This document shows positions 7,945-57,017 of a DNA stretch of 64,000 nt, piece by piece. This stretch comes from Lineus longissimus (Eukaryota > Nemertea > Pilidiophora > Heteronemertea > Lineidae), in NCBI RefSeq assembly GCF_910592395.1, contig NC_088316.1, positions 2,728,001 to 2,792,000 on the forward strand. Reading direction: 5' to 3'. The first letter of the stretch is position 1. Each line of letters starts with the position of its first letter. Both the position numbers and the translations under genes were made by a program. The notes beneath the pieces were generated by a model. It did not search any database. It saw nothing but the letters and a program-made list of their open reading frames with translations, and had not been told where the DNA came from.

Positions 7945-8926
7945 ATGGCCCAAAAAGGCCATCAAAACGATGAAATGATTAAGGTGTCACATGTTCAAGT
8001 AAATTGAATTCAATGTCAAATGCGATCAAACTACATCATTTTCGATCGGGGATTGTACTTCTTGTTATTTCAGCCAAGTGAAACTGTGCCAGTGCGGGTT
8101 ATCACCCGGGTGCGTCCATTTACGGATGTTGAGGAGGGCAAAGGATCCAAGAGAGTTGTCAAAGTCCATGGAGACAAGACTACTGTTGAGCTGGGAGGAA
8201 AGGATCAGACATTTGCATTGGATGGAGGTTATTTTTGGGATGTCAAAAATGTAAGTCATGTTGCTGATACATGTAAATTGTCTTTTCTCACCCAGTCTCA
8301 CTCTCAGTACAGTTTACTATTTAACTACATGCAGCGGTATTTTTCTTACATGTACCATACTGATAGATCTGATGCTGTTCCATTTCTTGATCTTGTTGAT
8401 TATCCCCTGACTTTATTATCTTCAATCCAAGCAATATGCAGAGTTGATTTTTGTTGTTTTGTTTATGACAAATGATATCCTTTCTGACTTAATTTATTCC
8501 CTTTATTTTTAGAATCAGATCTACCGTGAAACATGTGAACCTCTGTTACAGAAGGCCCTGGATGGATACAGTGTGGCTATCATTGCCTTTGGTGCGGTAA
8601 GTGGGTCGAATCATTGTGTTGGAACAATTCGAAATAATGGCGGGCAGGCTTCATTTCAGCAGTGGTTCCATTGCCCAAGTCCACCTAATTTCAAGGTGGG
8701 GAACTTCATTTAGTACATGTATAGTGAGGTTTACCTACTGGTAACAAAAGGTTTCATCTTTTCCCTGAAGAATATTTTGATTGGAGGACTCTCAGCTCTT
8801 GGTACTGATAACTAGTCATGATTATAAAATTCCATTGTTAATTTCAGACTGGATCTGGGAAGAGTTACTTGATGAACGGAACTGAAAACGATCCTGGAGT
8901 TGCGTTATGTGTGAGTTGAATTAATG

Positions 8927-32008: not shown

Positions 32009-35000
32009 CTAGCTGTGGATATCGAATAATTTTGCTACTTCATTTAGATCTTTATGTCTGATGCCATCCTTGATAATCTGAAATGAAATAAAGATAAAGG
32101 AAGTGACTACTTGGCAAGCCCGGCTTACCAAACAGCGACTTTTTTTTGTCCTGAATGGAGAGCCGAACTCATAAATATTAAAGTAAAGTCTCCAGCTCGC
32201 CAAACAGGGTAGATTTTTTACCTGTTTGGCAAGCCCGGCTGGCTTTTTAGTGCTGTTTGGCAAGCGGCTCTCCAAACAGGACAAAAAAAGATGCCTGTTC
32301 GGCGAGCGGCTTGCCAAATAGACCCGGCCAAAGATAAAACGCTACAAATTTGAGAAGCCAAAATAAGCCAAATGTGGACATCTACAACAGGATCTCAATG
32401 AATCAACTGTAGCAGAGAATAGTTTAAGAAGGAAGCTAAGTTCTGCAAGACTGTAGTGGAGAGAGGACACACAGGACAATGGACACATCTGATGATCATA
32501 TACACATATATAGGTTGTAATGACTAGTGTCTTTGATTGAGAGGTTGTCCTGAGTAGAGAGGTGTCCGCTAAGGGAGGTTCCACAGTACAAGTAGGGTAC
32601 AGACTGCCTTCTCACCATTACAAGTAAGTTTGAAAGTAAAGAGTATCTCAAAGCCAAGTATGACTGGCCCTTTCATTGTGAGTGACACGATAATGGAGCT
32701 GACCAGGACTTCACTATGGGAGTGTCTCATTACTTCAGTTCAGAGATCGGAAGCAAAACACTCACATGATAACTCAGAGACATTTTTGATGACTGAGTGA
32801 AAACTACACCATTATGGATAAATATCTGATCATTGAATGTTACCTACCTTTCTAGCTACCCCCATTTTATTAAAGACATTCCATAATACAATTCCGACCA
32901 CCACATCATCCTTCGTATAAAAGACTACTCCCTTCCCATAATTTTCGCTGACCGTCGGTGACGATTTAACAGCGTCCATTGCTTTGGCACCTTTGGTGGA
33001 CACAACCTGAAATCGACATTGGTATACAAATGTAAAGGTCAACTGAAGGACGAATTCCGGTTTGAGGTCTTGCATAACAGTGACCCCCATCGTCACATGG
33101 GTTCCACAAAAATAATAAAATGCACCATTTTCTAAGTTACGCTTTTTCCTTATTTACTCGTCAGAAGAAATTCTCATTTGTCAGAACTAATTCTGTGTTG
33201 ACTGTTATTGGATGGGATCATTTCGGTGAAATAGTTCCTGCTTCGGCTTGAGAAAACAAGCCATATGCCCAGTCCACCATCCCTAGGGGGACAGGGACTG
33301 GAGACCATTCTCACCTCTTCTGTCTCAGATCTAAGGCTTTCTCCTGTCTTCTTCACAACAGCTTCAGGAGTATCTTCTGCTGTGGCTTGAGCAAACACAC
33401 CTACTGTAGGAAGAGTGGCATCAACACGACCTATTGCCTGGTACCCAACACTTGGCCCGAGATCAGACCTAAAGAAAACATGACAAAACGTAAAACATAC
33501 AGTACTAGATAAATCAATCAACAACATCGCCTTGGCATGGCTGATTTAGGTCTTGATTTAGGTCTCAGACCTGATATTACAGTAGAACCTCTCTATCAAG
33601 GACACCCTGACAAATACTGTCCTTAATAGAGAGGTACAGTAGAACCTCTCTGTTGAGGACACCTTCGGGACTGACAAGTGCTGTCCTTAATAGAGAAGTG
33701 TCCTGATTAGAGAGGTCAAATTGAATGGAAACAACCAATTTGGGACTAAAACGAGTGTCCCTAATACAGAGGTTGTCCTTGATAGAGAGGTGTCCGCTAA
33801 GGGAGGTTCCACTGTAATAGAGAGGTGTCCTGATTAGAGAAGTCAAATTGAATGGAAAGCACCAATTTGGGACCAAAACTAGTGTCCCTAATAGAGAGGT
33901 TGGCCTTAATAGAGAGGTGTCCACTAAGGGAGGTTCCACTGTAATTAAAAACGTTTCTATAGCATTCTGTCTTGGGTGTATTTGCGCATAGTGGTTTACA
34001 GTTCAAACCAATTTCGGTTGATTAACTAAACCTCCAGCTAAGGCTTCTGAGGCTTGGCGTCAACAGAGTCTTGTGCAGAATTCCTCAAGGCTTCAGCTCA
34101 CCAAAACATCGACTGATGCCAATAAGGCTTTCCGGCACCGGTCATATTTTCTCCAGCCAAACGACCACTGACGACAGCATGGTCGTGATGTTCAACTCGT
34201 CGTCTGCCCAGCTTGACGTCGTAGAAACACGATGCATCCCCGGCCTGGAAAACAAGGAAACCAAATGTTTAAATTTCACACATGCATATTCTCTATAAAA
34301 TAGATGAGCCACTTTTTGTGATTTTTATCATTGCACAATTAGGTAATTCACAAAAATAATGCAGATATGGCAGAATGATTACTGGTACATTGGATTAAAA
34401 CGTTATTTCATAGTTTTCTATTTCAAGAGAAGCACCCCCCCACCCCACATGAGCTCTCCAAAGACTGGGAAATACAACCTACACATATACAGTGGAACCT
34501 CCTCAAAGCGGATACCTCTTTATTAAGGACAACCTCTCAATTAAGGACACTAGGTTTGGTCCCAAATTGGTTGTTTCCATTCAATATGACCTCTCTAATC
34601 AGGACACCTCTCTATTAAGGACAGCACTTGTCAGTCCCGTGGGTGTTCTTGATAGTGAGGTTCTACTGTATAATCAAATGGCTCAAAGTCAAGACTTTAC
34701 ATGTACTTACCACCCATACATTACTCCTCGCTTCCAATTCGGCATTGACCCTGAATCCACCGTGAACGTCATCGATTTCTAAACCAGAGGCTGTGGCTAA
34801 CTCAACACTGGGTTCCAGTCCAACGGCCAATATCACATGATCAACAAGAAGCTAAAAAAGAGAGCAGACATCAGAATTCACCCAAGCACAATGCCTTGTT
34901 TCCTGGAGATGTTCAGTCAAGTTTCCTTTGAGAAATGGATGAATGCTGAAATGTTGTGAAAGAAAGGACCGAAGAGTACTTCTTCTTCTTCTTCCTGACA

Positions 35001-38000
35001 GACAACAGTGCGTGTGAGATCACATTGTAGGCACATGCATGTATCAACAAACCTTTTCTCCACCCTGAAGACTGAGTTCAACTTGTCCGTTATTAAACGC
35101 AGCCGACTTCAAATTACTGCCTGGTCGAACATCAACGCCCTCTGCTTTAACTTTATTCGTCGTCCATTTACTGAGATATTCGGGAAGCACTTTGCCCATG
35201 TTGCCAGACTCGGGAAAAAGCTGGGTCACCGTCAGATCACTGTTGGGGGCCTTGGCTGCAAGGAAGACAAAGACTTTGACGTACATGGCAGAAATATGGC
35301 CTCTGTGATAACCAAGCTCACCACCCGAGCTGCCAAAGGAATATAAGCCAAACAGCTAACAGTAGCTGCCTCCTAGCGACTTTTCTGTGGGAAGGTCACG
35401 ATCCATATACATGTATGCATGCTTTCGGTGCCGAAACATCTCATTTTTCTAGTTTTGAGAAATGAAGCGGGCTTGAACTGGAAATGCTGTGATGAGGTGG
35501 TCACAATGTCATTGGTGACGTCACACTCGCAGGCACCCCTTACTCATGACGTTGTGGTATTCATGAAATCACACCCCTTGTTGAAACTAGCCTTATTTGA
35601 TGCATGCCTGTTTACATTTGAGACAAGTAAAGTTGTTTACATTACTTGACAAAATCCTCATACGCATGTGACAGGGAGTGCCGCCTGGTATGAGGTGCAG
35701 ATCGTTTTAGCCAGTATGAAATCTACAAGCGCCACCTAAATGGGGCTTGTCTTCATGAGCGGGATGCCGACAGCCCAGTTACGACATACCTCTCTTTCCA
35801 AGAGCACAGGCCAATTCACTTCCCAAGAAACCACCTCCAACAATAGCTATAGATTTGACATCAGCAGCTTTTGTAACGTCATTGAGACGGTGGAAGTCTT
35901 TTATCTGAAACATTGCAAGGTCACGACAAATCTTAAATCTTTCATGTCGTTTATCAACGATATTTTGGAAGATGACATAAGATGTAACTTTTAATCAAGT
36001 GAATTATTGTTGCAAAACACTGGTATGAAAGTGAAAAGATTGCGTCAAACTCTCGACCTTGTTTGGTCAACTGCCACGGCAAAAATGATCTTTCTTAGTG
36101 ACCACATTGCAAGCCCAACATCATCCTGATTTCAAGGTTCATGAAAAAATATCTCAAACTTACATTTCTAAACAGAGTTGTCCTCTTTTGGACTTCTTCT
36201 GTCGCTTTTGCAAAAACGGGTATAGTTTTCGGCTTTCCTCCAGTGGCGATCAGGCACTTGTCGTATTTCACCTCCCAGCCGTTATCAAGGATCGCGGTCT
36301 GAGCACCGATATCCAACTTGACGACCTTGCGGCCAGTCACCACAGCCACTCCGCCATTCTCCTTCATGTTCAACTCCCTCGGATTAATGTAGAAACTTTC
36401 CGGCTCGTATAAGAGACTTCTTTCCTTGCCGTCCCACTGCTGGAACTTCAGATCTGCGACCTTTGACTCCTCAGTGAACCAGAGTTCCTTTGACAGCGGT
36501 GGCCTCATGTATGGGATGGTGGCCTCATCTCCAATGACTAAGATCTTTGCCTTCGCATCCTGTATCATAGTAGCACATAAATTAGTTTTTTTATGAAGGT
36601 ACTTTTTGATAGGATATTTATTGATAGATCATAAGAAAGATAAATTTTAAATAACTTCAAATAGCAATTCATTAGGCAAAGGCCTAATACTGTACAGTCT
36701 TTTATTCAATATTTGTTTACAAAAGCTCTATGCGGCATTGTAGTGTTGAGTAGCAGGCATTTGGCTCATATCCCTGCTGCATGTCTCACCACTTCTTCCA
36801 ATAAGCAGCTGTGATGTTCAATTTTTCCCTCCTTGATGGTTAGGGACATGTCGCTTGCTGTACAATTTCTGTCTTTGTTAACACTTTAGATTTGAAAATA
36901 ATTTACGGAAACTAATTCCTACCTTGCCCTTGATAGCTCTGTAGGCCGCAAATGATGCTGTACCCGCTCCGATCAGGAGATACTGAGCATGGCCTGGGAT
37001 CTCTGGGAGGCTCTCCAGTGGTACTGGGGCCGGAGTAGCACCCTTACCTAAAATAGACAGCGATGACATTTAGCGTAAAAAATCAAAGCATATTTTACAT
37101 TTGGCAGTTTGAGAAATTGATGGAGACATGAAAGATGGTTGTTGTCCGGTAATTTCACCATTCTACCATTTTAGCTGGAATTTATTTCTGGAGGAGACAC
37201 TGGCAATCTGTTTATTTCTTGTCATCTATGTCACCCATGACCCCATTTTTGAGCAGCACTTTGGTAAAATATGAGTACACATAACTCAGAAGTTTTCACT
37301 GTTCCCTGATTGAGAACAAGATGAGCAATGTACAGATGATGTCCCACCACCAGACAAGACGATACAAGCAAATCTGTCTTGACAGAAGCGAAGCGAAGCA
37401 TTTCTAGTTAGTTGTGCATGAATCATGGCCATTGCGAGAAGTGCGTGTTAAAATGGAGCATGTACTGGACAGAACATTGGATTTCATAGCCAGGCCATTC
37501 GGACATTATCTAAAGTCAATTTCTGACTCATGTTGGTAAAATTTGCTGACTTATTTCAGGCAGGTGAAAACTTTAATATTTTTATCAGATTCAAGGACAG
37601 TGTTACAGCAGTTTTGGTTTGTGGTTATCATTTATCACGGAACAGAGATTAGACTCAAGTAAACGACACTGTTCAGGTATGGCAAAGAAGTGGGATGAAG
37701 TAGGACATGAGTCTGAAGTAGGACATGAGTCTGCTTCAATAGCGAAAGCCTGGCAGTTGCGGTTCTGCCATTAGTGAGTTTCAAAGCTCAACTAGAACTT
37801 GCAGTTACAACAGAACAACAACATAAACCTTTAAAATTGAAAAAGGTTCAAAAACACTGCAACACTTCTTAAAACTCTCAATATTTTGATAATAACAAAG
37901 CAAAAACGTCTCAATATTTGAACATTTGGGAACTTTTGAACAGGTTTGTGTGACCTCACCGCTGAATTGCTTACGAGCAATATCAGATGCAGCTGTTCCA

Positions 38001-41000
38001 ATCTCTATGCCTGTGGCAGTCTCCACGGCCGTGCTTGCAGCGGTCTCGACCGCTTTCTTACTAAGGAGTTTGATGGGTTTCCCAAAACCTTAGAGCAGAT
38101 TTAGAGATTGGGAGAAGAAGCAGAAAAGCATTAGAATTGGTAGTATTTTTCATTGACGCTTATGGAGAGGTTTAGAAGGAGGGAGGCATGCAGAATGATA
38201 GATGGTGGAGAGACATAGGACCTTTACCACAGTGAAAAAAGTTTTAGAGAAGATATTAACAATAGCCCCGCTATTGAGAATAACAAAAAGTGTTTCAATT
38301 TTAACCTCACTTGACTTTGATTGGGCAATATCCTTGGCAGCAGCACCCAGCCCCTCAATTGCTGTCTCTACAGCCATAGTACCAGCAGTTTTCCCCGCTT
38401 CTTTTGAAAGTATTGGTGATACAGATATTTCACTTTGTTTGGCCTGAGAAATGTCTCTCGCAGCAGCACCCAGGCCTTCCGTTGCTGTTTCAACGGCAGT
38501 AGTACCAGCAGTTTTCCCAGCATCTTCCGAAAGTATTGGTGCAGACGATATTCCACTTGGTTTAGCCTGACCAATGTCTTTAGCTGCAGCTCCAAGGCCC
38601 TCGACAGCCATTTCAACGGCTGTGGTGCTAGCGGTTCGACCAGCTTCTTCGGATAAGATATGCACGGGTTCTCCTGTGCAGCGCAACACAAAATCAAATG
38701 ACAACATGAGCAAAGAAGAAACAAACACCACTTGGAGAGGAGGGGACAATAGACCGGGATATCAGGGCTTCCGTTAACCCTGGTGACGTCTTTTTACCCT
38801 TCAAAATGAAGAAAGGATCCTCGGTATAAACTGGACACCCCTTTCAAAACCATTGAGGGACCTTTTAAAAATCATGTTCTTCTCTCTAAAATCCAATTAC
38901 GTGGGTTAGTGGAGGCCCTGGGACTTGTGGAGGTGTCACTCAGGTGCAGGGGTTGTGCTGATGACGTTTAATGACGTCAACGCATCTTGAAAGTCAAACC
39001 ATTTTCTCACCAGGATCAACAGTATCAGTGGCAGTAGCACCTAATCCTTCAGTAGCTGCCTCTTTAACTCCTGAGTCACCTGGAAATATGGCCACTGGTT
39101 CTCTTGAGGGTAAGGCAAATAAACACAACGAAAACAACAAATAAAATCTAAAAGCACAAAAATCATGCAGTGCATGCAACACAAGGTGTTTTACTTTCAG
39201 ACAGCGTCATGAAAAGTCTGATTCTATGAACTGTATTAACACTAACAAAGCAAAAAAATTCTGAAAATATTCCAAGCAAACTGATCAAAATGCAAAGGCA
39301 GAATAATTTTGAAGTCATGACTCACCAGGTTTTGCTTTTGATATGTCAGCCGAGGCTGCGCCAATACCCATGTCACTGGCGGTCTCCACTGCTGTGGCCG
39401 CAGCAGTAATCCCGGCGTCTTTCGATAACACTGGGATTGGTTTTCCTGCGAGTCAAATAAAGTTATATAAACACCATACCACAGATACATGACGACTTAC
39501 CGATGGTGTCAGAAATCCTAAAGACTCTTCCCTTCACTGGATAGATGCATCATGCGGATAGATCGGCATGCACAGACAATGCAGAATGAAGCTCTTTCAA
39601 TTTACAACTTACTGATAATTATGAATTTTTACAACTGCTACTATTGTGGCTCTTTATCAAGAGTAGATTCTACCAATGAATAAATGATAAAAATCTTGAC
39701 CCATCACCACTTCCCCTCACAAGAAAAGGTTAAAGGGAACTGGAACTGCTGAGCGATATATTCAACTTTTCGACTTTCACCGCCCGAGAAAGTCAAACTT
39801 CCAACTTCCTATTCGAGTTCAGATTTGTAGCTCCGCCCCCAGTGCCCGAGCATGCGCAGTTCAATTTGTTATTATTGAGAATCATGTGAGAATCACGCGA
39901 GTCATGCGATCTTTCATTCATGAGTTTTCGTAGTAAATTCCATAGTAGTGACGTCACTCAATGATTGACAGCTTGGCGCCATGTTTCATTCATGCCTCGT
40001 TCTGATCACCCGATACACAGGAAATGAAAACGAGGTCATACGAACTGGCTGGGCGGTTTCAGTTCCCTTTAAGTCACCAGGTAAATACAAACACCAATAG
40101 TGAAACTGCAAAAGAATTTGGGCGCAAGAACTTACCTGGTTTGGCTTTTGATACGTCCCCAGACGCCGCACCGAGACCCATGTCACTAGCCGTCTCTACT
40201 GCTGTGGCGGCAGCCGTCTTCCCAGCCTCTTTTGACAACACATGGATGGGTTCTCCAGCTGAAGGTCATGAAAACATCCGATATGATATTATCAAGATTA
40301 TGGACCTGGAGCAACACTACATCTCACAGCACACCAAATTGGCCAGCTGTTTTTTACTTTACTTTTTTTGGTTCTCGCACAAAGCTTGGATTGGAGTGGC
40401 AATAGTCAGGACTAAGGAGTTTCAAAACACAGGTGAGTCAGCACAATCCACTTTTAAGGTCTTATACATACTCTTAAGGTTTTATATTAGAGGCTCCCTT
40501 CATCTAGACTGGTCACCAACCGAGGCTAGAGATCTGTCTCCCCACAATGTTCATACGAACCTACAACTTCTCCAGCCTTCCGTGCAATATCCTTTGCTGC
40601 CGCAGTTATTTCAGAATCGACGGCAAACTCTAGAGCAGTGGCAGCAGCAGTATCACTGGAGGCGGACGGATTGATCGGAGTGGCACCCCCACCTAGAGGT
40701 GGTAGGCCAAGCATTTCCCGAGGAACTTTGATCTTTTTATAATCTGGTACTCCATGGACATAGAAACAATTGTTTCGGTGCATCTGGAACAGTAAGTCAG
40801 GGGTGAAGAATCTGGTCTCAATTCAAACTAGGCCTACACAGATAGTACACACTTGTAAGACATAATTGTGAGAAAATATCAGTATCACCAGCCAGTTTGC
40901 TTGGAAAGAAGAAGGGTGACACTATTCGACAGCATAGGTTTCCTCCAAGGTCTCCGGTTTCCTCCTACTTTTAGAACTAACATTACAATCGCCCAATATT

Positions 41001-43755
41001 GTTTATAGAGCAAATAATGCCCTAAAGTTGATTCTCAGCTTTCAACTCAATTTTTTTACAACAAGCTTACCACATAAACTGTGACGCCCAAGAAGGCAGT
41101 ACTGGCCAGAATCATCATGTTCCACTTGGTGTTCCGCGCTTGGTAGTTCTGCTGCCAGGAGCCTTTGGGAACTGGCAGGTGATTCATGGTGGTGTGGTGC
41201 TCTATGTCAATCTGTTTGTCGGTCTTCCATTCTGCTGGGGTGTAGCCACTCATACATCTTGATGACGCTTGCTGAACTCCTGAAATGATTTAATTTTTGA
41301 AAAAATAATGAATATTGAAAGAAAATGGGTTTAGGTAGGCCTAGAATCGGCGTGGCGATACAATATCATTCAATGTTACATGCATCTGTCACAGTCAGTG
41401 CAAATCAGCATAGACCATAGGCCCCTGGGTATCAGGCTGTTTCGCTGCATTGCCAGTTCGCTACCAGTCGTTTCGCTACATGTGGCGGTCGTTTCGTTAC
41501 ATGGTAGGTCATTTCGCTACATGGGTGGAGTCGTTTCGCTACATGATGGGTACGGTCGTTTCGTTACATGGAGGGCGTTTCGCTACATGGGTGGAGTCGT
41601 TTCGCGACATGGATGTAGGTCATATCGCTACATCGTAGGTCGTTTCGCTATATGGGTGGAGTCATTATTTTTACTCTATTTTACCCTACTATAATTCCCG
41701 GTGGTGACTACAAATTTATTATAGCACAGTTTGCCGGTAAAAAAACTTATACGGTTTGATGGCGCGCAAGGGGTTCTTGTCGTCCTGGCCTGGGTTAGGC
41801 CACATAAAAAAAAGAGTTGGTGATCGTCCCCGCCCGCCCCTACGAAAAACGCCCGGCCCCATTTTTTGTTAAAATCCTAAATGAAACGGCCAGGGGCCAT
41901 TGTGCTCACCGTATAGATATTTGGTGCTTTGTAATTCATCCAGATTAAGACACATTATACATGTATAGTATATAGGTCAAACCAAAGTCGGTATGACATG
42001 TGATGTATCGTTGCTTGGAGTAAGAACCATAAGAATATCATCAAAAACAAGTCAATAATAAACGAGATATTGCACTTTTTACCTATTTTAGTTTTGGCCT
42101 CCTGGTGGCCGAGTTGAGGACCAGATCAGATCGAAATTCGGTGTCCGAGGTTACATGACGTAGGGAGTCATGTGTATCAAATTTCAAGTTCAAAGCTTTA
42201 GTGGTTAAGAAACGTGCCATAGTTACAATCAAACGACAAATTTACGCCATTTGACCTCTGTGACCTTGAAAAGCAGGTCAGATCAAAAACTCATATGATA
42301 TGTGATGTATCCTTGCTAGGAGAACCTACCATAAAAATGTTATTGAAAACGAATCACTAAAAATAAGCAAGATATTGCACTTCTTACTTTTTCCATTATG
42401 GCCCCCTGGTGGCCGAATTAAGAATCAGATCGAGCCAAAATTTGGCATCAGAGGTTATCTGATGTAGGGGGTTATATGCACCAAGTTTCAAGTTCATAGC
42501 TTTACTGGTTAAGAAACGTGCCATAGTTTACACTCTAACGGCCAATTTACGCCATATGACCTCTGTGACCTTGAAAAGTAGGTCAAATTGACAACCCCTA
42601 AGATATGTGATGTATTCTTCCTAAGGGTACCTACCATAAAAATTTTATCGAAAACAAGTCACTTATAAGCGAGATATCACACTTTTTAGATTTCCACTTT
42701 AGGCCCCCTGGTGGCAAAGTTGAGAATCAGATCAAACTGAAATTCAGCACCAGAGGCTATGTGATACAGGGGGTTATATGTACCAAGTTTCAAGTTCATA
42801 GCTTTAGTGGTTAAGAAACGTGCCATAGTTTACACTCTAACGGCCAATTTACGCCATATGACCTCTGTGACCTTGAAAAGTAGGTCAAATTGACAACCCC
42901 TAAGATATGTGATGTATTCTTCCTAAGGGTACCTACCATAAAAATTTTATCGAAAACAAGTCACTTATAAGCGAGATATCACACTTTTTAGATTTCCACT
43001 TTAGGCCCCCTGGTGGCAAAGTTGAGAATCAGATCAAACTGAAATTCAGCACCAGAGGCTATGTGATACAGGGGGTTAAATGTACCAAGTTTCAAGTTCA
43101 TAGCTTTAGTGGTTAAGAAACGTGCCATAGTTTACACTCTAACGGCCAATTTACGCCATATGACCTCTGTGACCTTGAAAAGTAGGTCAAATTGACAACC
43201 CCTAAGATATGTGATGTATTCTTCCTAAGGGTACCTACCATAAAAATTTTATCGAAAACAAGTCACTTATAAGCGAGATATCACACTTTTTAGATTTCCA
43301 CTTTTGGCCCCCTGGTGGCGAAGTTGAGAATCAGATCAAACTGAAATTCAGCACCAGAGGCTATGTGATATAGGGGGTTATATGTACCAAGTTTCAAGTT
43401 CATAGCTTTAGTGGTTAAGAAACGTGCCATAGTTTACACTCTAACGGCCAATTTACGCCATATGACCTCTGTGACCTTGAAAAGTAGGTCAAATTAAAAA
43501 CCCGTATGATATAAGATGTATACTTGCTATGAGTACCTACAACAAAAGTTTCATCGAAAACAAGTCACTAATAAACGAGATATCACACTTTTTAGATATC
43601 CACATTTGGCCCCCTAGTGGCCAAGTAGAGAATCAGATCGGACAGAAATTTAGTGTCACAGGTCATCTGACCTAGGGGGTCATGTGTACAAAGTTTTAAG
43701 TTCATAGGCCTAGCGGTTAAGAAACGTGCCACTGTTTTTGAACTAGGATACGACG

Positions 43756-43817
<62 letters not shown>

Positions 43818-46800: not shown

Positions 46801-47055
46801 GTCCTCGACTTTACATATTAATTAAAACCGCCAGTATTACTTTTGTAAATAAGTGTGGAGGACTTTGAATTGGTAGACATTTGTTACGTTTTTATTTCGT
46901 TACCCTATAACAAACTTTTTTTGGAACGAACAGAACATTTCCGAGTTTTTGTTTCAAACTTTTGTCATGCACCCGCACACTTAGCCCGTTCAAACTGCAT
47001 GCGGCAAAAATCAAATTTGGTTACTACGCCGTGAATAATGATGATGATAATGATA

Positions 47056-47093
<38 letters not shown>

Positions 47094-47715
47094 AATGATG
47101 ATTACCCGAAGACGAATCTGTAATTGTACTATACTCGAGCATTTTTTCCCTAAATTCACAACAGATATTTAGCCCGGAGTTTAGCACAAACTTAGGGAGT
47201 AATAGGGGAATAATGTAGCGAAATGACCTACGATGTAGCGATATGACCTACATCCATGTCGCGAAACGACTCCACCCATGTAGCAAAACGCCCTCCATGT
47301 AACGAAACGACCGTACCCATCATGTAGCGAAACGACTCCACCCATGTAGCGAAATGACCTACCATGTAACGAAACGACCGCCACATGTAGCGAAACGACT
47401 GGTAGCGAACTGGCAATGTAGCGAAACGACAGTAAACCGGCCCCTGAATGCTATGCATAGACCCAGGCCTACAATACATTACATATATGGCCTACTTACA
47501 TGCATGCATTGCAAGTGCATGGATTCTGCAGAGCAGATTTCAGAATTGTTGATAGATTTAAAAAAAATTCTTCATGCAAACTCGTCCGATGTTGTCTCGG
47601 GCTCATACCAACCTTTTTGAGTGCTTTGGAATGTACTTAAAACAGGAGCCCCTCTTAGACAAATTGTTGCTCTTTTGAGAGCCGAATTTAGTGACTTTGT
47701 TGGACACCGGTACAT
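32009..47715 (-). CDS. AIFM1: AIFM1-A, apoptosis-inducing factor with repeat-expanded linker
   Basis: Seventeen exons, all phases agreeing: 47715-47613, 41279-41071, 40783-40561, 40258-40136, 39445-39326, 39100-39011, 38673-38311, 38088-37960, 37047-36923, 36559-36164, 35904-35790, 35255-35053, 34851-34711, 34244-34102, 33468-33315, 33006-32848, 32077-32009. Product about 954 aa (human 613). Residues 1-50: mitochondrial presequence ([20 protein letters not shown], then SSRCMS). One transmembrane segment about 86-104 ([17 protein letters not shown]). Residues about 130-453: Ala-rich 40-aa repeats. Then the AIF core: FAD site [39 protein letters not shown] site [34 protein letters not shown], and C-terminal [14 protein letters not shown] and LNEVAKLF. 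Family role: inner-membrane NADH oxidoreductase that supports CHCHD4 import and respiratory-chain assembly, and acts in cell death once released. Exon 6 (39100) has a weak acceptor. Confidence 0.9.
32110..32335. repeat. Inverted-repeat element in last AIFM1-A intron region
   Basis: GGCAAGCCCGGCTTACCAAA is echoed by GGCAAGCCCGGCTGGC and by complementary GCGGCTTGCCAAATAG; TTTTTTTGTCCTG pairs with CAGGACAAAAAAAG. Foldback element, family unknown. Confidence 0.6.
32515..32588. mobile_element. TA-flanked MITE fragment
   Basis: Second half only, ending GGTGTCCGCTAAGGGAGGTT then CCACAGTA, in the last intron of AIFM1-A. Confidence 0.75.
33578..33943. mobile_element. TA-flanked MITE with a second copy inserted in it
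   Basis: Outer copy 33578-33634 plus 33817-33943; inner complete copy 33635-33816 bounded by TA on both sides (GAGGTACAGTAG and CACTGTAATAG). AIFM1-A intron between 34102 and 33468. Confidence 0.8.
34488..34670. mobile_element. TA-flanked MITE
   Basis: Complete copy from TACAGTGGAACCTCCTCAAA to GAGGTTCTACTGTA, 40 bases from the AIFM1-A exon at 34711. Confidence 0.85.
37960..40783 (-). repeat. Coding repeat array of AIFM1-A linker
   Basis: Exons at 40783-40561, 40258-40136, 39445-39326, 39100-39011, 38673-38311 and 38088-37960 encode about eight degenerate repeats with consensus G[EK]P[IV]xxLSKxAGxTA, then xTAVExA, then GLGAAAxDIxxAKP. Most take one exon of 90-129 nt; the 363-nt exon holds three in a row. 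The first (40783 exon) and the 39100 exon are the most diverged. Low charge and many Ala/Thr/Ser suggest helix or a flexible spacer; structure is not established. Confidence 0.88.
39731..40072 (-). mobile_element. MITE with TTAAAGGGAACTG ends, copy 2 (inverted)
   Basis: Reverse complement of 10551-10894, with ends TTAAAGGGAACTGGAACTGC and GCGGTTTCAGTTCCCTTTAA. Lies in the intron between two linker-repeat exons of AIFM1-A. Confidence 0.85.
41428..41660 (+). repeat. Left terminal inverted repeat of the MULE
   Basis: Made of about nine variants of CGTTTCGCTACATG with short spacers such as GGTGGAGT and GGTACGGT. Mirrors 47211-47438 in the same order. Confidence 0.9.
41960..43740 (+). repeat. Satellite-like array of about 310-bp units
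   Basis: About six units, each with GAAACGTGCCATAGTTTACA, ATGACCTCTGTGACCTTGAA, AGGTCAAATTGACAACCCC, GGCCCCCTGGTGGC and AAGTTTCAAGTTCATAGC. The middle units (42540-43450) are nearly identical and the outer ones diverged, as expected for unequal exchange. Non-coding. Confidence 0.93.
43753..43817. repeat. (CGA)n microsatellite
   Basis: Pure GAC/CGA triplets right after the satellite array, followed by GGACACTGCGGTATTGTATA. The same arrangement ends the array, so it is probably part of its structure. Confidence 0.95.
44118..46223 (+). CDS. FLYWCH/MULE transposase, frame broken by one TGA
   Basis: Intronless frame that is open from 44118 to 46223 except for TGA at 44751-44753. The first 211 codons are Pro/Ser/Thr-rich with a basic patch (NKRKRKV). 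After the stop comes an FLYWCH-type zinc finger ([26 protein letters not shown]; about 44890-45045), then the MULE catalytic domain: first Asp in WYADATFKL, second in [13 protein letters not shown], the CLFHW Cys/His motif, and Glu in [15 protein letters not shown]. Together these are the DDE triad of Mutator-like transposases. It would cut and rejoin DNA at the element's inverted repeats. No ATG opens the downstream part close to the stop, so the copy is inactive unless the TGA is read through or the downstream part starts internally. Confidence 0.85.
46232..46615 (+). repeat. About 96-bp tandem repeat after the transposase
   Basis: Four units with TTATTGATTGACAGGGGTCA, CGCAGATTTGGAGGCCTTTG and CGTTGGCTCGCTCGTCGTCC. 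Inside the MULE; non-coding. Confidence 0.92.
46617..46790. repeat. G-rich patch
   Basis: A run of about 13 G followed by several G4-G6 runs and matching C runs (TCCCCCC, CTCCCCC). Possible G-quadruplex DNA within the MULE. Confidence 0.6.
47037..47102. repeat. (GAT)n microsatellite
   Basis: GAT triplets with three interruptions, just inside the right inverted repeat of the MULE. Confidence 0.95.
47211..47438 (-). repeat. Right terminal inverted repeat of the MULE
   Basis: Reverse complement of the left end (ATGTAGCGAAACGAC units). It is about 5 bp shorter overall, with a few substitutions. Confidence 0.9.
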
Positions 47716-47931
47716 TTTTCCGATTATTTCTTCTGGAAGGTCAATAAGTGAAGTCGAGCTCAATTCAGAATTGGTGGGAAAGGAAATTAGCTTGCACTTG
47801 AAAAAGCTGATGTGCGCGAGATAATATTTGTGGGTTAGTCTTGCTCACTGCGACAGACCACTCTTTCGCTTTTTTCAATTACGACATTCCTGCAGTGCGC
47901 AAAGATTTTGCGAGCAGAAAAATCTTTTAAA
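47716..47931. promoter_or_regulatory. Shared bidirectional AIFM1-A / AIFM1-B promoter
   Basis: Only 216 bp separate the two divergent ATGs, so both 5'UTRs and core promoters must fit here. No TATA box is seen. TGCGCGAG (47812) and CAGTGCGCAAAG (47893) each contain a TGCGC core like that of NRF-1 sites, which are common in promoters of mitochondrial genes; each is a half-site at best. Confidence 0.7.
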
Positions 47932-50900
47932 ATGTTTAGATTTGGTGCAAAAACACTAAATTTATCCCTCAAACAGGGATCGATCCGTTTCCAAAGTTCA
48001 TCATTACTTAAAAACTTCCAAGGAGCAAAGAATGGTGTGTATTGTATGGGCTGTTTTTTCTTTATTTTAGATGCATTTTGGTGTGCAATAGTCCATATCT
48101 TTGCTCAGTCTGACATGATTTTTTTATCATTGAATCACATTGAGTCAATTCATGTACAGAAGAACCTCTCTATTGAGGACACTCTCGGGACTGACAAGTA
48201 CTGTCCTTAATAGAGAGGTGTCCTGATTAGAGAGGTCAAATTGAATGGAAAGAACCAGTTTGAGACCAAAAGTAGTATCCTTAATAGAGATGGTGTCCTT
48301 ACTAGTGACTGTCACTGTGAGTGAGGTGTCCGCTAAGGAGGTTCCACTGATAGTGTGTAGGCCGCATGAATGATGTTAGTCTATGTTTATTTTGTAGTCT
48401 GTCTGTGGTGTTATGACTGCGTTTAATAGTGTGTATCAGTACATGCAGTATAGTGTATTCAGTTGTTGACCCAATTTCAGGGAAATGCCAAGTATTGACT
48501 TAGTCTGGTGTATGAAAGATATCAAATTCTGGCAATATGGCTCTTGTTGTGCTGAGTCACTGGGGAGACTGTCGTTCGTTCATGTGTTGGCCTGCCGACG
48601 CCGACGGTTGAGTCGAGAGATGGGGAGATGTCGTAGAGTGAGGACTGAGCCCGAGTGGGGTTATCTACAATACGACCTTTCAGAACTTTGGTCCAGGATA
48701 TGGCGATGGTAGGCCTAGATGGTTTGTGCCTAACTGACCAATCGGCTAACAGAGCCACCAAATGATGTAAATCATCTGATTTATGCATGAATTACGGTAA
48801 GGCCATCTGCTGGCTCTGTTGTTAGCTGGTTGGTCAGTTATGCGCACACCATACCATTGTCATGACATTGCCGGGATCAAAGTTTTGAAGGTCATATTGT
48901 CGTGTAGGGCTTAGCCTACACAGCCTTCTGCTAATTTGCTGTTTTTAACCCAAGATCAGTACAGTTTTGTTTCAACAGAAGGAGGATGTCACAAAAAAGA
49001 AAAGGAAACCTGTCAGGCTGATGGCTATAAATAATATTTAAAAAGATGGGAAGTCAGCAGGGGTGTGGCCATCACCATGGTAACCACGACGAGTTTAAGA
49101 AACGAGATTGGTGACTGAGTTGTGGGGGAGGGAAAGCCTTGGTATAGCAGTAAGCCCATGTTTCTCTCCTGGGAGTGGGATTATTATGTCGGTCCTTCCT
49201 CCTAGTATAGAAAAGAACCTATCGGAACTAAGCTAGCATTCCTATTTCCAGAGTTTCATGCTGTGAGGTGCCTGAGCAACCAGTCGAATGGAAGGACTGA
49301 TGGGCAGCAGCACTCCTGGAGCCAAGGTCATGAAAGCCGGCAGAAATGGAGCTTGATGCTTGGTGGTTGTGCATTACTTGGTGGCACAGCATTTTTGGCA
49401 GTAAGTAGGGAATCAATAATTTGAATTAAAAGCTCTTCGTCTCAGAATCCATTGTCAGTCTCATGTCATTGTACTTGGATGAAGCTGGATTTTTGGCAGT
49501 AAGAATCTTTTTTTAATATACAGTTGAAAATTTTGAATTAAAAGCTCTCATTCTCTGAATGTAGTTGGTCCTATATCATCTATTATTGATTATTATTTCA
49601 AACAGATGGAGTGAGTCTTGCCATCGTTGAGTCAATATTGTCATCAGGTGTCTGGAAGAATAGGAAGAGTTGCAACATTGTATTTAGTTGTTTCTAACTG
49701 TATGAATACTCTTTGAATACTTGGACATATGACTTTAACGTATTTCAAAAAATTTCAGCTGAAAAAGGATGAAGTCACAGAGGCAACACAAAGTCTCAGA
49801 GAAGGTAACTACCTATAGTTAAAGTAGTCGTATTCAGCTATTTTAAAGGCCTATGATGTTCCTGTTCAGTGTATTTCCTTGTGGCTCAGGTAAAAATGGT
49901 AAATAGAAATAAACATTGCCGTTGTGTAGTTATTATACATGCAAATTTGCTGAAACTTGGCACTTAAATTGGTCTGAGCAACAGCACTGTTGAATTTGAC
50001 ATTCATTCATGTCATTACCTTTTACACATTTGAAAATGTTCAGGTTCAAGTTTCAAATTTTTTAACCATGAATTGACATTATATTTCATTGAATCTGTTG
50101 CGACTTTGTTCATGGCAAGCAGACAATGTATCATCTTCAACATCAGCGTCAGATTTTAGATCCAATGAAAGAATCAAATGTACCCAAGAGATTGTCTGTT
50201 GAGCGTTTCTCTCCTAATAACTAGAGAGAAGCCTGTTCCAGAAGTACATCCCAGTTATCCATATTTGCACTGTTGTTCTTCAACAAGAGAGAAGCCTGTT
50301 CCAGAAGTACATCCCAGTTATCCATATTTACACTGTTGTTCTTCAACAAGAGAGAAGCCTGTTCCAGAAATACATCCCAGTTATCCATATTTACACTGTT
50401 GTTCTTCAACAAGAGAGAAGCCTGTTCCAGAAGTACATCCCAGTTATCCATATTTACACTGTTGTTCTTCAACAAGAGAGAAGCCTGTTCCAGAAGTACA
50501 TCCCAGTTATCCATATTGACACTGTTGTTCTTCAGTTTTTTAATTTCTTCTTTTAGCCTTTACCCAGAGGGCCACCGTCCATGCATCTGCTGTCATCAAA
50601 AGTGGTGAGTTATTAATCTGTATTAAAAAGCATGTACCTTTTATTTCATTTGATGCTGGGCCATAGGATTTTATTTTTAAGGCTTTCTAATGTCCTGTGT
50701 TGTCATCAATTCCCTTGAGCATAAATTTTTAATTTAAGGCTATGCATTTTGTATCATATGCTTTTATCCCAATCTTTTGGTGCCTGGCTCACAGCTTTCT
50801 TAATGTCAGTGGCGGATTTAGGGGCGTTCCCCTCCCCTATCCCTTGGAGAGCAACAATTTTTCAAGGTGCCTCCCCGCAATTGAAGAAACCGATAAAAAC

Positions 50901-53900
50901 TTGTTTTAGCCTTCAGATGCCCTTAGGCCTTAAGTTATAATGGATTTGATGCTTTCCACTATTGTTTCCAAGATGTAACTTCGGTGCTCTGTGGTTGGGG
51001 CTGCTTTTCAAATTTCTGAATCTGCCACTGAATTTCACCGCTGGTTTAAATGCTCCTGCTTATCATAAACAGCGCCTGCATATATTCATTATTCATAGTT
51101 TTCATCATCCTTGCTTCATTCCAGCCCACAGTATGCCCCCTTGCTGATGTATATATAGATGCTTTTGGATGTAAAGGCACACTGCAGATAGAATTAGCTT
51201 ATTCAGTTTCACAATAGCCCAGGTATGCTTCGCTTCATTGTTTTGCAACTACCCACTTGTTCAGTCCATTCTTTATCATTGACATCTTTTAACCAATTGT
51301 GACCTACCAAGGCAAAATGAGTCGCATGTCGTGCAGAAGATGAACCTAAAATGACACCAGGACATAATAGAAGAAATTGGATACTCGGATGTCACAAAAG
51401 GCAGACAACAGTGAAATGAACAACCAGTCCGTCTCAACCTGTCAAGCTCGGAGCGACATGCGACTCATCTTGCCATGGCGGGTCACATTTGGTTGCAATA
51501 TCACCATCAATCACTTGCTGTTGACAACCTGTGTGCTATTGGAAATACTGAAATGTTGGGCAAGACTCATCAAGATGAAACACTCTCAATGCAGTGGACT
51601 GGCCTCATCCCTCCCACTAACATGAAGAAAGATTATAAGACGAATGAACTGCCTTTGGAGTGTTTACAAGATAATGAATTATCATATTTCTGCCGTGTCT
51701 ATCGTGTTCTTTCCTTGCCAAATATGTTATCAATATCATTTATTCATATAATTTGTATTACAGATATCCCCGATTCTGTCAACTATCTTTTGATCGGTGG
51801 CGGCACTGCCAGCTACTCTGCGGCAAAAACTCTGAAGAAGCAATCTCCTAAGGACAAGATACTCATCATCACGGAGGAGAGCAATCTTCCATACTCCAGG
51901 CCTCCGTTATCCAAACAGTTGTGGATGAGTGAAGATGGGGCCAACCTCAAGTTCAAGGGGCGGGATGGGAAACCTGCCAGGTAATAAGGAAAGTTAGAGT
52001 TGAAGAGCTGCATGGCAAATTGTCCTTCTTCACTTCAAGTAAAAACGGTACTGCGCTGAAAACGAGTCTAAAATGGCTGGGAAAATTTGTCAGTACACTA
52101 GAACCTCCCTTAGCGGATACCTCTCTATTAGGAACCACCTCTTTATTAAGGACACTAGTTTTAGTCCCAAATAGGTTGTTTCCATTCAATTTGACCTCTC
52201 TAATCAGGACACCTTTCTATTAAGGACAGCAGTTGTCAATCCCGTGAGACAGAGTTTCCTTATCAGAGAGGTTCTACTGTATTTTGATTCAAATGGCTGG
52301 TTCTTACTTTGTCTGATTCTGAAGCAGTTCGAACTCATTCAAAGTGCAGTGAATGCCAATTTCTAATAAGGAGTCAGTTTATCAGAGAACAGACATTGAA
52401 TGTGTTCCAACTGCTTTATGTTTTCAGGTTCCAGCCAGATGGTGGCGCCTATGGTCAACCCTTAACAACTGAATACAGTAGAACCTCCCTATTGAGGACA
52501 CCCTCGGACTGTAAAGTACTGTCCTTAATAGAGGGGTGTCCTGATTAGAGAGGTCAAATTGAATGGCAGCTAACAATTTGGGACCAAAACTAGTGTCCTT
52601 AATAGAGAGGGTGTCCTTATTAGAGAAGTGTCCGCTAAGGGAGGTTCTACTGTATATGTACTGTTCCAGTACCACTTTGCCACGTGTGACTGGCATGTCT
52701 GCCGTGCCATTGCAGCTAACTCCACAGGTTATTGCCAATCATTCTAATCCCCTTTCTTTCAGTATATTCTATGAGGATCCCAGCTTTTACGTCCCAGCAG
52801 CTGATATGATGAACAGCAAAGAAGTGGGTTACAAATGCAACAGAAGGGTAAGTCACTGTACTCTGAATTTAAAAAGATCCCAACTGTCGTGTTGGTATTG
52901 GGTTGAAAATTTGACTGGAGAGCACTCTGTCACCGAGGTTATATGCTTTCATGTAGCTGTACTAGCAGAAGGATCCCCAGGATTGGACCTGAACCCTATT
53001 GTATGGCAGCCAGCTGTGTTAACCAATATTAAGCTATGACGCTTCTTCTTCTTTTTGCAGGTTGTAAAGCTTGACATTCCTAACCAGAAAGCGGTTCTCG
53101 ATGATGGCCACGAGATCAAGTACGATCGCTGCTTGATTGCAACTGGAGGAAAGCCGAAGAATATCCCGGTCTTCATGAACGCCGACCCGAAAGTCCAGGA
53201 GCGAGTTTCTTTGTTCAGAACTGTAAGTGTCTTGTGAATTAGGCAGCGTTAGGCCTTTGTGCTTGAGATTTTTGACTTCTGACACAACGGCAGAATGCTG
53301 GCTTTGTGAGTGAGAGACCGTAGGTTCAAACTTGGCATTGTTACAAATTGGCGGTGTCGGCAAGCATAGTTTGCGAGGCGATTTTCTCTGCTCATTGAAA
53401 GGATGTTCCTACGTCCAGCGGGAGTGAGTGAGAGGACATGGAACTTCTAGGGACAGGTCTCAAGAATATGAGGGGGAAGGGTGTTGAGATTTAGGCACTG
53501 TTATACCCTTGTGCTTTATAACGTCCTAATCCTGGCATAAAGGTAAAATGCTGGCCTTGTAAGCGCAAAGTCGTAGGTTCGAATTTGGCACGGTTACAAT
53601 AGGTACATTGGAGTATAGAAGAGGCTCAGTAAATGTCGATTTCTCTTCTTCTTCAGTTCAGCTCCTAGTCTGCACTTAGTAATGATTATTTTTGTTCCTT
53701 TTCAGGCCCCAGACTTTCAGGAGCTTGATGCCCTCACGAAAAAAGTCAAGTCTGTTGCAATCATTGGTGGAGGTTTCCTTGGCAGTGAGTTGGCTTGTGC
53801 CATCGCAGCAAGAGAGGGTAAGAATTTCTTCATCTGGGTTCGTTATCTTGTTTGCAAACATTTTGCGACTTAACGTGACTGGATGTGGATGGATTACTTG

Positions 53901-56900
53901 TATGTTATTGGTGACTCAGGGATGGGGTAGATTGAACCAGTCAAATGTAGGACCATCAGACTCACGAGCAACCAGTTGAGATGGTGTCAAATTATCGCAC
54001 TGATGACGACTAAGGGTTGACTATAGTTGCCACCATTTTGGCTAGAACTTGAAATCCTAAATCAACAAGAAGTCCTTTAAAATGAAGTGACTGCCGGTGT
54101 CAGTCTGTTCTTCTGCGTCTCCTGGGTGGCATATGATCATGTTTGACCTTGGCATTGACACTGTCTGTTCCGAATACAATTCATTTTTAAATTTCAGGCA
54201 AATCTGGCATGAAAGTTACTCAGATGTTCCCAGGGACTGGTTGCTTTGGGCGAATCCTTCCAGAATACTTGAGCGATTGGACAACAGACAAAGTACGCGC
54301 CGAGGGTGTTGACGTCAAGCCGGGCACGAACGTGACGTCTGCTTCGTACGCCAACGGTCAGGTGGCGCTGAAGCTGGATAGTGGACAGACGGTACGAATT
54401 GACCTTGAACTGTGCGTGGATACAATCTTAAAGATGTCATTCACTTTTCGAAACTTGTAATTGAATTAGAAATTTTCAAACAGTGTAAATACACACTGAA
54501 TATAAATTTCAACCGTGTCGTTGTGTAGACCAACACAAATACTATAGATACCAAGTTTCGGCAAATTGGCATGCGTAGTAACTGCACTGCTGTGTAACTG
54601 CATTTTTAGTTTCCTGAGCCACCAGTAATTACAAATGGTGTTCCTCTTTAAAGCTGTTCCAGGAAAGTAAGAAATAAGATTGAGAAAACATGGTGGGTGA
54701 AAAAAATGTAAACATAAAAAAGAAAAAAATGTAAAAGGTCAGTTTTGACTCCGCACACCAGCACCTTAGAGGAGACATTGTTTACCCACATTGGCTGATT
54801 CTTCTCTCTTCTTTCACGATTGCAGCTCCTAGTGGACCATGTCGTCGTCTGTGCCGGTTTAAACTTGAATACAGACCTTGCCAAGACATCAGGCTTGGAG
54901 GTTGATGAGGTCCGGGGAGGGTACAAAGCAAATGCAGAACTGGAGGCCAGGACAAATGTTTTCGTTGTAAGTCCAAACCACGAGAATTGTTTTGAATTTT
55001 TTCTTCTTACGAGGGGGATCACCGTGACCTGCCTGGCCAGGAACTGTTTGGTTTGTAAAGTCAAATTTCATAGTGCAGTGGTCTTCAGGTCTTCACTGTG
55101 TGACCTTAACTGTACCTCATTTAGCAGTGAAGATTTCAATTTCATTGATTTAGTTCGCCATTTAGGTAAACTGATCAGATTTGCGATTCAATTTTCATAT
55201 TTTGGTTTCCAGGCTGGCGATGTTGCCTCATATTACGACATCGAACTTGGCAGACGTCGCGTTGAACATCATGATCACGCTACGCTCAGTGGCCGCATAG
55301 CTGCTGAGAACATGATGGGTGCAGCTAAACCTTTTACAGAGCAGTCCATGTTTTGGTGAGTTTAGCTCAATTTTTGTTCAATTTCTTCTCAGTTCATACT
55401 CGATTCATACATAAGAGTGGCCATCTGATCCTCACATTTTCCAAATAGAATATGAGATGAGTTTGCTGTGTGGGTCAGTATTTACAGTGGAACCTCCCTT
55501 CACCTCCACCTCTATTAAGCACAACCTCTCTATTAAGGACACTAGTTTTGGTCCCAAATTGGTAGTTTCAATTTGACCTCTCTAATTAGGACACCTCTCT
55601 ATTAAGGACAGCACTTGTCAGTCCCGAGGGTGTCCTTAATAGAGAGGTTTTACTGTAGTTGAGTAGGCAAGCAAGAAATAAGTAGGAGATTAGATTGAAA
55701 ATGGAAATTCCATTCGTAACTCAATGACATTCTGTCTTTATTCTAGGTCTGGTTTGGGCCGATCTGTTGGCTTCCAAGCTGTCGGCAAGATTGATTCCAA
55801 ACTTGCTACACTTGCTGTCTACACTCCTGCTACTAGCAATCAACCTGTAGTTGTCAAGGAGACTGAAAAAGTTGTGGAAGTAAGTGTTCAGAGGTTTGGC
55901 TGCTCCAAAAATGAAGTCCTCTTTCGTTTTTGGGCAGTGAAAACAAAGTTTGAATCGGTTAACCGTCGTTAGGAAACGAATCATATGAATAGAATCTGTT
56001 AGGAATGTTTTTGCCAACTTAAAGGCCATAAAAATAAAGATGTTTACAGTATAGTGTCCTCTGCGTAGGATCTCCAGTTGCGCGTGTTTATTAATGAGAA
56101 ATATTACTCATACTCGGGTGCAGATCCAAGGGGGGGGCACACCAGACACACCCCCCCATTTCATGAAAAAAAATTGAAATTGACCATGAAATTTTGGAAC
56201 AGACGACGAATTTTGATAAGAAATACAGTACACTGGCACCTTATTCCAGCCAACACTCACCTTTGGCTGATTTTGTCGGCATCAAGAAATTGACGTTACC
56301 GGTGAAATGATCGTGCTTTCAGAGATTCCCATTTGGAGGAGGCAGACGCCGAAGGAAGGGGTTCGGCTGGTTCAACAAGAAGGTCATCCAGAATCCAGAT
56401 GACTTCAAGAAGGGTGTCATTTTCTTCTTGGAGGATGATAAAGTGGTTGGCGTCATCGTGTGGAATATATTCAATAAGTTGGGGGAAGCAAGAAAGGTGA
56501 ACATAATTATTTTTTGCTTCTATGATTCGGGACAGTTTTGCCTGTCTTTATTTGGCATCATCTAAAATTGCAGGTGTAGGCCCATTCAAGGGTGTACTCC
56601 AAAGCCTTAGATCACGATCTGCGATGTTCCTTGAGGTTCCTCGGTTCAAGTGCCAGACTCTTGGTGATCGTTCCTTTGCAGTAGCTGCTCAAAAAAAACT
56701 GTGGGACCAGCTGCCGCAAAAGCTCCGTAACATTGATTCCCTCCAGACTTTCAAGTCCCTCCTAAAGGCCCACCTTTTTGCAGTTGCCTTTGGGGAAAAT
56801 GCGCTCCAGAATACCCACTCGCTGAGTAATTGGAGCGCTCTACAAATGCCGACATTGATTGATTGATTGGTTGATACTTTCAAGACCTGTGTTAAAAATA

Positions 56901-57013
56901 TTTGAACAGGAGGAATAACAAACTGCATGTACCTTCTATTCTTTTAACAGGTTATGCAACAGACCAAGCCAAAGGATATCACTGCCATAGCCAAGCAATT
57001 TGGACTCACTTAG
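47932..57013 (+). CDS. AIFM1: AIFM1-B, apoptosis-inducing factor 1, mitochondrial
   Basis: Fourteen exons, phases agreeing: 47932-48034, 49252-49400, 49759-49804, 50557-50604, 51764-51980, 52763-52847, 53061-53222, 53706-53817, 54198-54391, 54826-54966, 55213-55355, 55747-55879, 56323-56496, 56951-57013. Product about 589 aa, like human AIFM1. Presequence MFRFGAKTLNLSLKQGSIRF, then RCLSNQ; transmembrane segment WSLMLGGCALLGGTAFLAL at about 66-84; FAD site [39 protein letters not shown] site [34 protein letters not shown]-terminal VVGVIVWNIFNKL. Just before that strand is a basic stretch, GRRRKGFGWFNKK, absent from AIFM1-A. Role as for AIFM1-A. The 103-, 141- and 143-nt exons have the same lengths in both paralogs, showing common descent. 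Confidence 0.93.
48155..48352. mobile_element. TA-flanked MITE
   Basis: TACAGAAGAACCTCTCTATT to GGAGGTTCCACTGATA, with an extra GTGACTGTCACTGTGAGTGA insert near the end. In AIFM1-B intron 1. Confidence 0.8.
49838..50075 (+). repeat. ACACCGTTTGTAATTAC repeat family, diverged copy
   Basis: Shares ACATGCAAATTTGCTGAAAC and AATTTGACATTCA order with 9229-9447 but the start is eroded. AIFM1-B intron 3. Confidence 0.5.
50222..50530. repeat. 62-63-bp minisatellite in AIFM1-B intron
   Basis: Five near-identical units (GAGAGAAGCCTGTTCCAGAA, ATCCCAGTTATCCATATTT, CACTGTTGTTCTTCAACA). Because the unit is a multiple of three, frames stay open on both strands; this is not evidence of coding. Confidence 0.93.
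51297..51490. mobile_element. Hairpin-type element, diverged copy
   Basis: TGTGACCTACCAAGGCAAAA at the left pairs with CTTGCCATGGCGGGTCACAT at the right; the interior has GAAATGAACAACCAGTCCGT as in the other copies. AIFM1-B intron 4. Confidence 0.7.
52094..52281. mobile_element. TA-flanked MITE
   Basis: TACACTAGAACCTCCCTTAG to GAGGTTCTACTGTA in AIFM1-B intron 5. Confidence 0.85.
52474..52654. mobile_element. TA-flanked MITE
   Basis: TACAGTAGAACCTCCCTATT to GGGAGGTTCTACTGTA, opposite orientation to the copy at 52094 in the same intron. Confidence 0.85.
54436..54656 (-). repeat. ACACCGTTTGTAATTAC repeat family, inverted copy
   Basis: Reverse complement of the 9229/12536 type: CTTGTAATTGAATTAGAAAT at the left, CCAGTAATTACAAATGGTGT at the right. 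AIFM1-B intron 9. Confidence 0.75.
55483..55656. mobile_element. TA-flanked MITE
   Basis: TACAGTGGAACCTCCCTTCA to GAGAGGTTTTACTGTA in AIFM1-B intron 11. Confidence 0.85.
56540..56880 (+). mobile_element. 3' end of a LINE in the last AIFM1-B intron
   Basis: The frame encodes the ORF2 tail: LGDRSFAVAAQKKLWDQLP then FKSLLKAHLF, followed after the stop by an (ATTG)n tail (ATTGATTGATTGGTTGAT). Different lineage from 219-653, to judge by the tail. Truncated and dead. Confidence 0.8.
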
Positions 57014-57017
57014 AAGT

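Follow-up and report, generated by a model that had tools for sequence, protein, structure and literature searches.

Structure of the AIFM1-A gene

We analysed a 64,000-nucleotide stretch of the genome of the nemertean Lineus longissimus (contig NC_088316.1, forward strand, positions 2,728,001 to 2,792,000; called the window below, and numbered from its first letter), which carries two genes for the mitochondrial apoptosis-inducing factor 1 (AIFM1, or AIF), a FAD/NAD oxidoreductase with a C-terminal AIF_C domain. The subject here is the first of them, AIFM1-A. Rebuilt from the raw strand, it consists of 17 exons on the minus strand (47715-32009) and encodes a product of 947 aa. Every exon border is GT-AG, the phases match and a single open frame runs across all 17 exons. 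The donor of exon 1, GTTGGT, is weak, yet the identical join is found in the NCBI proteins. The parts of the gene are as follows.

47613..47715, minus strand: exon 1, presequence-like, homologous to AIFM1-B exon 1
41071..41279, minus strand: exon 2, PF16020 (Prag01-like) domain with membrane span, seen by Pfam, own-genome search and standalone-gene match
40561..40783, minus strand: exon 3, running from the PF16020 C-terminal tail through a linker into the first, partial Ala-rich unit
40136..40258, minus strand: exon 4, repeat unit 1, class 1-1, in NCBI isoforms X1, X2 and X3
39326..39445, minus strand: exon 5, repeat unit 2, class 1-1, in X1, X2 and X3
39011..39079, minus strand: exon 6, partial unit of 23 aa, cassette, class 1-1, among the three NCBI isoforms in X2 only
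38311..38673, minus strand: exon 7, three tandem units, cassette, class 1-1, among the three NCBI isoforms in X1 only
37960..38088, minus strand: exon 8, repeat unit, class 1-1, absent from X1, X2 and X3
32009..37047, minus strand: exons 9-17, FAD/NAD oxidoreductase and AIF_C, seen by Pfam and AIFM1 structures

Pfam recognised Pyr_redox_2 (155.1 bits, residues 468-799) and AIF_C (185.8 bits, residues 803-929), both over their cut-offs, and residues 462-946 matched solved AIFM1 structures, the best being 9fl7 with 662 bits, which identifies the gene as AIFM1. Within residues 1-450 the best hydropathy window begins at residue 87; the presequence was judged by eye. The presequence, a membrane span before the FAD domain, and the oxidoreductase with AIF_C are shared with AIFM1 proteins in general. 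Unlike the usual AIFM1, the protein has a span of the PF16020 type and a linker of 172-359 residues with Ala-rich repeats; in human AIFM1 the linker between span and FAD domain is short.

NCBI lists three isoforms, X1 (881 aa), X2 (783 aa) and X3 (760 aa), and what we say about isoforms is at the level of this annotation. Their first 259 residues, and everything from exon 9 onward save the junction residue of X1, are the same as in the 947-aa model. All three join repeat exons to the FAD exons, as a preliminary description of the locus had supposed. Exons 1-5 are present in each; X1 adds exon 7, X2 adds exon 6 and X3 has neither. Because exon 8 occurs in no NCBI isoform and exon 6 in X2 alone, none of the three carries the maximal array. 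The linker from span to FAD domain measures 293 residues in X1, 195 in X2 and 172 in X3, and would reach 359 with all exons used. As the annotated isoforms carry from two full repeat units (X3) to five, linker length may be regulated through splicing.

The Ala-rich repeat array

The array occupies residues 143-446 (304 aa, 22 % Ala), between the membrane span and the FAD domain; the interval from the start of exon 3 to the end of exon 8 is exactly 37960-40783. The preliminary description had reported about eight in-frame repeats of 40 aa at this place. Their position and frame are confirmed by the 17-exon model and by tblastn between units, and the count needs correcting: six units are full (one of 40 aa in exon 4, one of 40 in exon 5, three of 40-42 in exon 7 and one of 41 in exon 8), while the other two are partial: exon 6 holds a 23-aa remnant, and exon 3 a 37-aa stretch that lacks the first part of the unit. 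By tblastn, full units from different exons find each other with E values from 2.7e-16 to 5.6e-6, above chance; matches of the partial units are weak, with E no better than 0.0008. The motifs LSKxAGxTA, TAVETA and GLGAAAxDI recur across the full units.

At the protein level, the full units share 45-82 % of residues across their 15 pairs, and pS lies between 0.54 and 0.95. The six pairs with finite dS give dN/dS of 0.10-0.21; in the other nine the synonymous sites are saturated. Between exons 4 and 5, 78 % of bases are identical, against 34-36 % for the introns that flank them. Judged by these comparisons of sequence, the array is old coding sequence under selection. Exons 4-8 have phase 1 at both ends, so any subset could be spliced in with the frame kept.

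The protein of exon 7, searched against the 391-Mb genome (E up to 10), hit at least four places, all within AIFM1-A (exons 7, 4, 5 and 8). No Pfam family reached its cut-off for the array, no solved relative was found in PDB and a search of prokaryote genomes returned no relative. Resemblances to SH3_3 and PGDYG in Pfam were below cut-off and a PDB match to holo-ACP synthase had E 0.84; we took these as chance. A likeness to LEA proteins was also considered; no LEA family is present in the Pfam listing at E up to 10.

AlphaFold models the exon 7 units as three helices of 28-32 residues with low confidence (pLDDT 44), which is compatible with the Ala-rich helices suggested earlier. The amphipathic version of that suggestion, with apolipoprotein-like lipid-binding helices, is unsupported by hydrophobic moments compared with shuffled sequences. 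Larger moments were obtained at 88-116 degrees, without shuffle comparison.

The membrane span belongs to a PF16020 domain

Residues 67-113 of AIFM1-A match PF16020 (Prag01, the 'deltamethrin resistance' domain, first named in Culex) with 43.4 bits and E 2.9e-11, over the family cut-off of 27; the score varies between 41.3 and 47.7 bits with the stretch submitted, and the domain is also precomputed for X1, X2 and X3. Searching the Lineus genome for PF16020, with six candidates scored, gave two places at E up to 0.001, exon 2 of AIFM1-A and a locus at C9:17.12 Mb. The latter is a standalone gene, 14 Mb from AIFM1-A; it opens with a short presequence-like exon, followed by one that ends in the membrane span, and has two alternative last exons. 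Its predicted proteins are 107 aa long and score 56.9 bits. The candidate last exons (7384-7455 and 8054-8125 of the extracted locus L003) encode near-identical protein ends and are identical at 50 of 72 bases; they are duplicated terminal exons.

The two genes share two introns at the same positions, in phase 1 and phase 0, and the tail VPDYKKIK, which stands at the start of AIFM1-A exon 3 and from which AIFM1-A continues into the repeats. Compared over 87 codons, exon 2 and the start of exon 3 show 61-62 % identity to the standalone gene (pS 0.85-0.93, dN about 0.32), values which indicate that selection has maintained the PF16020 part of AIFM1-A. The shared region does not include the presequence exon or the standalone protein's final residues; the presequence exon of AIFM1-A is like that of AIFM1-B and unlike that of the standalone gene. 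The PF16020/Prag01 members known here, in part from the literature, are small proteins of 89-107 aa, whereas in AIFM1-A the domain is fused to an enzyme.

On this evidence the membrane span of AIFM1-A is part of a Prag01-like domain, PF16020, which has a standalone relative in the same genome. The gene as read from its sequence is a three-part fusion of PF16020 anchor, Ala-rich array and AIF oxidoreductase, beyond a mere long linker. The preliminary description of an AIFM1 with a long repeat linker holds, and had overlooked both the identity of the span and the variation of the linker among isoforms.

The 28 matches of the N-terminus in PDB had E 0.61 and above and were taken as chance, as was a match of a three-row profile to gp41-5 (E 0.0013 overall, its two stretches about 7 each). 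Viral contigs searched with the N-terminal profile contained no relative.

AIFM1-B and the age of the fusion

The second gene lies head-to-head with the first.

47932..57015, plus strand: AIFM1-B, 14 exons, 589 aa, short linker

The gene model bears out the short linker previously ascribed to AIFM1-B. Between the two start codons (47715-47932) there are 216 bases. The arrangement suggests a shared promoter following an inverted duplication. A search of the Lineus genome for AIF_C found AIFM1-A and AIFM1-B only.

Both genes were compared with a human AIFM1 sequence, four stretches of which were checked against a solved AIFM1 chain. AIFM1-A is 58.8 % identical to it (human 121-611) and AIFM1-B 43.4 % (human 81-610, a slightly different span), which makes the fused copy the better conserved one. 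At 17 chosen positions, around the FAD/NADH site and elsewhere, AIFM1-A is identical at 14 (it differs at human 265, 493 and 571) and AIFM1-B at 12, differing additionally at 196 and 255. Within 51764-51980, AIFM1-B has Arg at the position of human W196. Given this residue and the lower overall conservation, AIFM1-B may have changed function.

The beginnings of the two genes are related. Exon 1 of AIFM1-A aligns with that of AIFM1-B at z 11.2, and the exons 2 align at z 8.4; none of 2000 shuffles reached the score in either case. AIFM1-B exon 2 has no PF16020 match and hardly aligns with the standalone PF16020 protein (81 of 2000 shuffles reach the score). Exon 3 of AIFM1-A does not align with AIFM1-B exons 3-4 (1624 of 2000). 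The N-terminus of human AIFM1 has no PF16020 match and does not align with AIFM1-A exon 2 (1525 of 2000), and the alignment of its first 40 residues with AIFM1-A exon 1 is not significant (188 of 2000). The simplest reading of these sequences would be that the fusion preceded the duplication into A and B and that AIFM1-B has since decayed.

A metagenome protein of 93 aa, P0004, matches exon 2 of AIFM1-A with 80 % identity over 75 % of the query. It agrees with AIFM1-A at 53 of 66 positions and with the standalone protein at 36 of 66, and scores 47.7 bits for PF16020. Known from this exon alone, it appears to represent the fused gene's exon 2 in another nemertean. The protein searches scored the 7996 candidates sharing most words, 163 candidates and one candidate, respectively; the fused protein was found in Lineus only, among candidates chosen by exact five-residue words within length limits, so that its absence elsewhere is not shown. 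A narrow literature search found no description of an AIF with this fusion or array.

Other features of the window

Intron 1 of AIFM1-A contains a transposon of about 6 kb (41439-47427) with inverted ends of 215 nt that are 98 % complementary. Inside it lie a MULE/FLYWCH transposase frame (44754-46223, plus strand) and a 302-base tandem satellite of 5.6 copies (42026-43731); no target-site duplication of 6-13 bases was found around the ends as called. Elsewhere in the window, an open frame of 1418 residues (25705-29961, plus strand) shows, by eye, about five motifs of the SESLFSKDSQ type and about four of the FSEEIPVL type.

Is PF16020 related to COX7B?

COX7B is a subunit of complex IV with a single membrane span. 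A bolder idea is that PF16020 proteins correspond, in invertebrates, to a COX7B-like subunit of that complex and that AIFM1-A is a natural covalent fusion of AIF to this subunit, with a tether adjustable by splicing. In that case the worm would have fixed in one chain the partnership of AIFM1 and cytochrome c oxidase reported from bovine mitochondria. When human COX7B was searched against 24736 Pfam families, PF16020 came second best (E 0.015), below the curated cut-off. PF16020 was also listed for mouse COX7B (E 0.14) and not for the pig and bovine proteins, so for two of four in all; it was listed for none of eight other small respiratory subunits.

Direct comparisons were mostly negative. 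The AIFM1-A N-terminus, P0004 and the standalone proteins did not match PF05392, the COX7B family, at E up to 10, nor did full-length AIFM1-A at E up to 1. Pairwise alignments of COX7B with PF16020 proteins reached z 0.9-1.3, and hhalign probabilities were 0.1-1.8 % on very thin alignments. The interactome of anchored AIFM1 favours complex I over complex IV (PMC13226697). For lack of a PF05392 match, and because of the low z and hhalign values and this interactome, we do not take the COX7B reading as the explanation and do not accept the identity. A COX7B-like nature of PF16020 is only suggestive, and we regard the whole proposal as doubtful.

How the fusion may work

In human and mouse cells, association of AIFM1 with respiratory-chain components is decided by membrane anchoring: when anchored, and not when released, mammalian AIFM1 brings down certain components of complexes I, III and IV in co-precipitation, mostly those of complex I, and OMA1 releases it by cleaving just behind the span (PMC13226697). 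An AIFM1 dimer bound to bovine complex IV has been modelled (Hevler 2021, as described in PMC8790184). If PF16020 were a complex IV-like subunit, that complex would offer a natural docking place; AIFM1 binds there without the covalent fusion seen in AIFM1-A (PMC8790184).

Our preferred reading, to which we give a probability of about 55 %, is that a PF16020 protein, minus its presequence and last few residues, has taken the place of the AIF anchor and is joined through an array of symmetric 1-1 exons to the oxidoreductase, which is docked and tethered by it. Most likely the PF16020 part sets the location of AIF and the array sets its reach. Once the presequence is removed, the inner membrane would take up the PF16020 module, whose tail would face the intermembrane space, and the module would occupy the place of its standalone relative. 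The FAD/NAD head would be held near this seat, at a distance given by the number of repeat exons spliced in. If the module keeps its native seat, the fusion would position AIF there permanently. Topology, docking and tethering are what we infer from the architecture.

Several points weigh against this reading. AIF may simply tolerate the length its linker has. Confidence in the repeat helices is low (pLDDT 44), the AlphaFold model of full-length AIFM1-A failed (pLDDT 31.5), and none of the six units is significantly amphipathic at 100 degrees (hydrophobic moment against shuffled sequences, p 0.12-0.88). AIFM1-A retains 14, not all, of the 17 AIFM1 positions checked. As for Prag01, two papers give its function as unknown or open.

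The first of these points can be extended to the whole N-terminal half: the PF16020 part might now do no more than anchor the protein in the membrane, with the array as a spacer that is tolerated whatever its length. Single-span anchors are easily exchanged, the array varies in length among the annotated isoforms, and AIFM1-B manages with a short linker. Yet the VPDYKKIK tail past the span is retained, and dN/dS is low in all 6 of the 15 repeat-unit pairs where it could be computed; conservation of tail and repeats argues that both still do something, and we hold this alternative to be rather unlikely. Slightly less probable still is that the array is not a spacer and serves chiefly, in the intermembrane space, for binding or self-association. 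The recurrence of the three motifs at their positions in full units would suit such a role, but the array belongs to no Pfam family at cut-off and has no solved relative and no partner known, and X3 gets by with two full units.

It is very improbable that exons 2-8 belong to a separate gene or that their join is an error of assembly or annotation. A standalone PF16020 gene does exist elsewhere in the genome, and the exon joins rest on annotated isoforms. Against this, the frame stays open with matching phases through 17 exons, no stop codon parts the PF16020 tail from the repeats within exon 3, all three NCBI isoforms concur, the genome search finds the array at AIFM1-A only, and P0004 is closer to AIFM1-A exon 2 than to the standalone protein. 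We rejected this explanation on the phases, the isoforms and the restriction of the array to this gene in the genome search.

What appears to be new here is an AIFM1 whose anchor has been exchanged for a recognisable one and whose repeat tether varies in length among the annotated isoforms. Gene fusions often join proteins that work together, and this one hints that AIF and the PF16020 protein, a small membrane protein of mitochondrial appearance, may belong together. It ties AIF, whose role at the inner membrane is still being worked out, to a small uncharacterised family known, in the papers found, mainly from work on insecticide resistance. The fusion would also offer a test of where AIF is seated, by asking which complex contains the PF16020 protein, and the range of tether lengths that splicing seems to produce in nature may tell how far AIF must reach.

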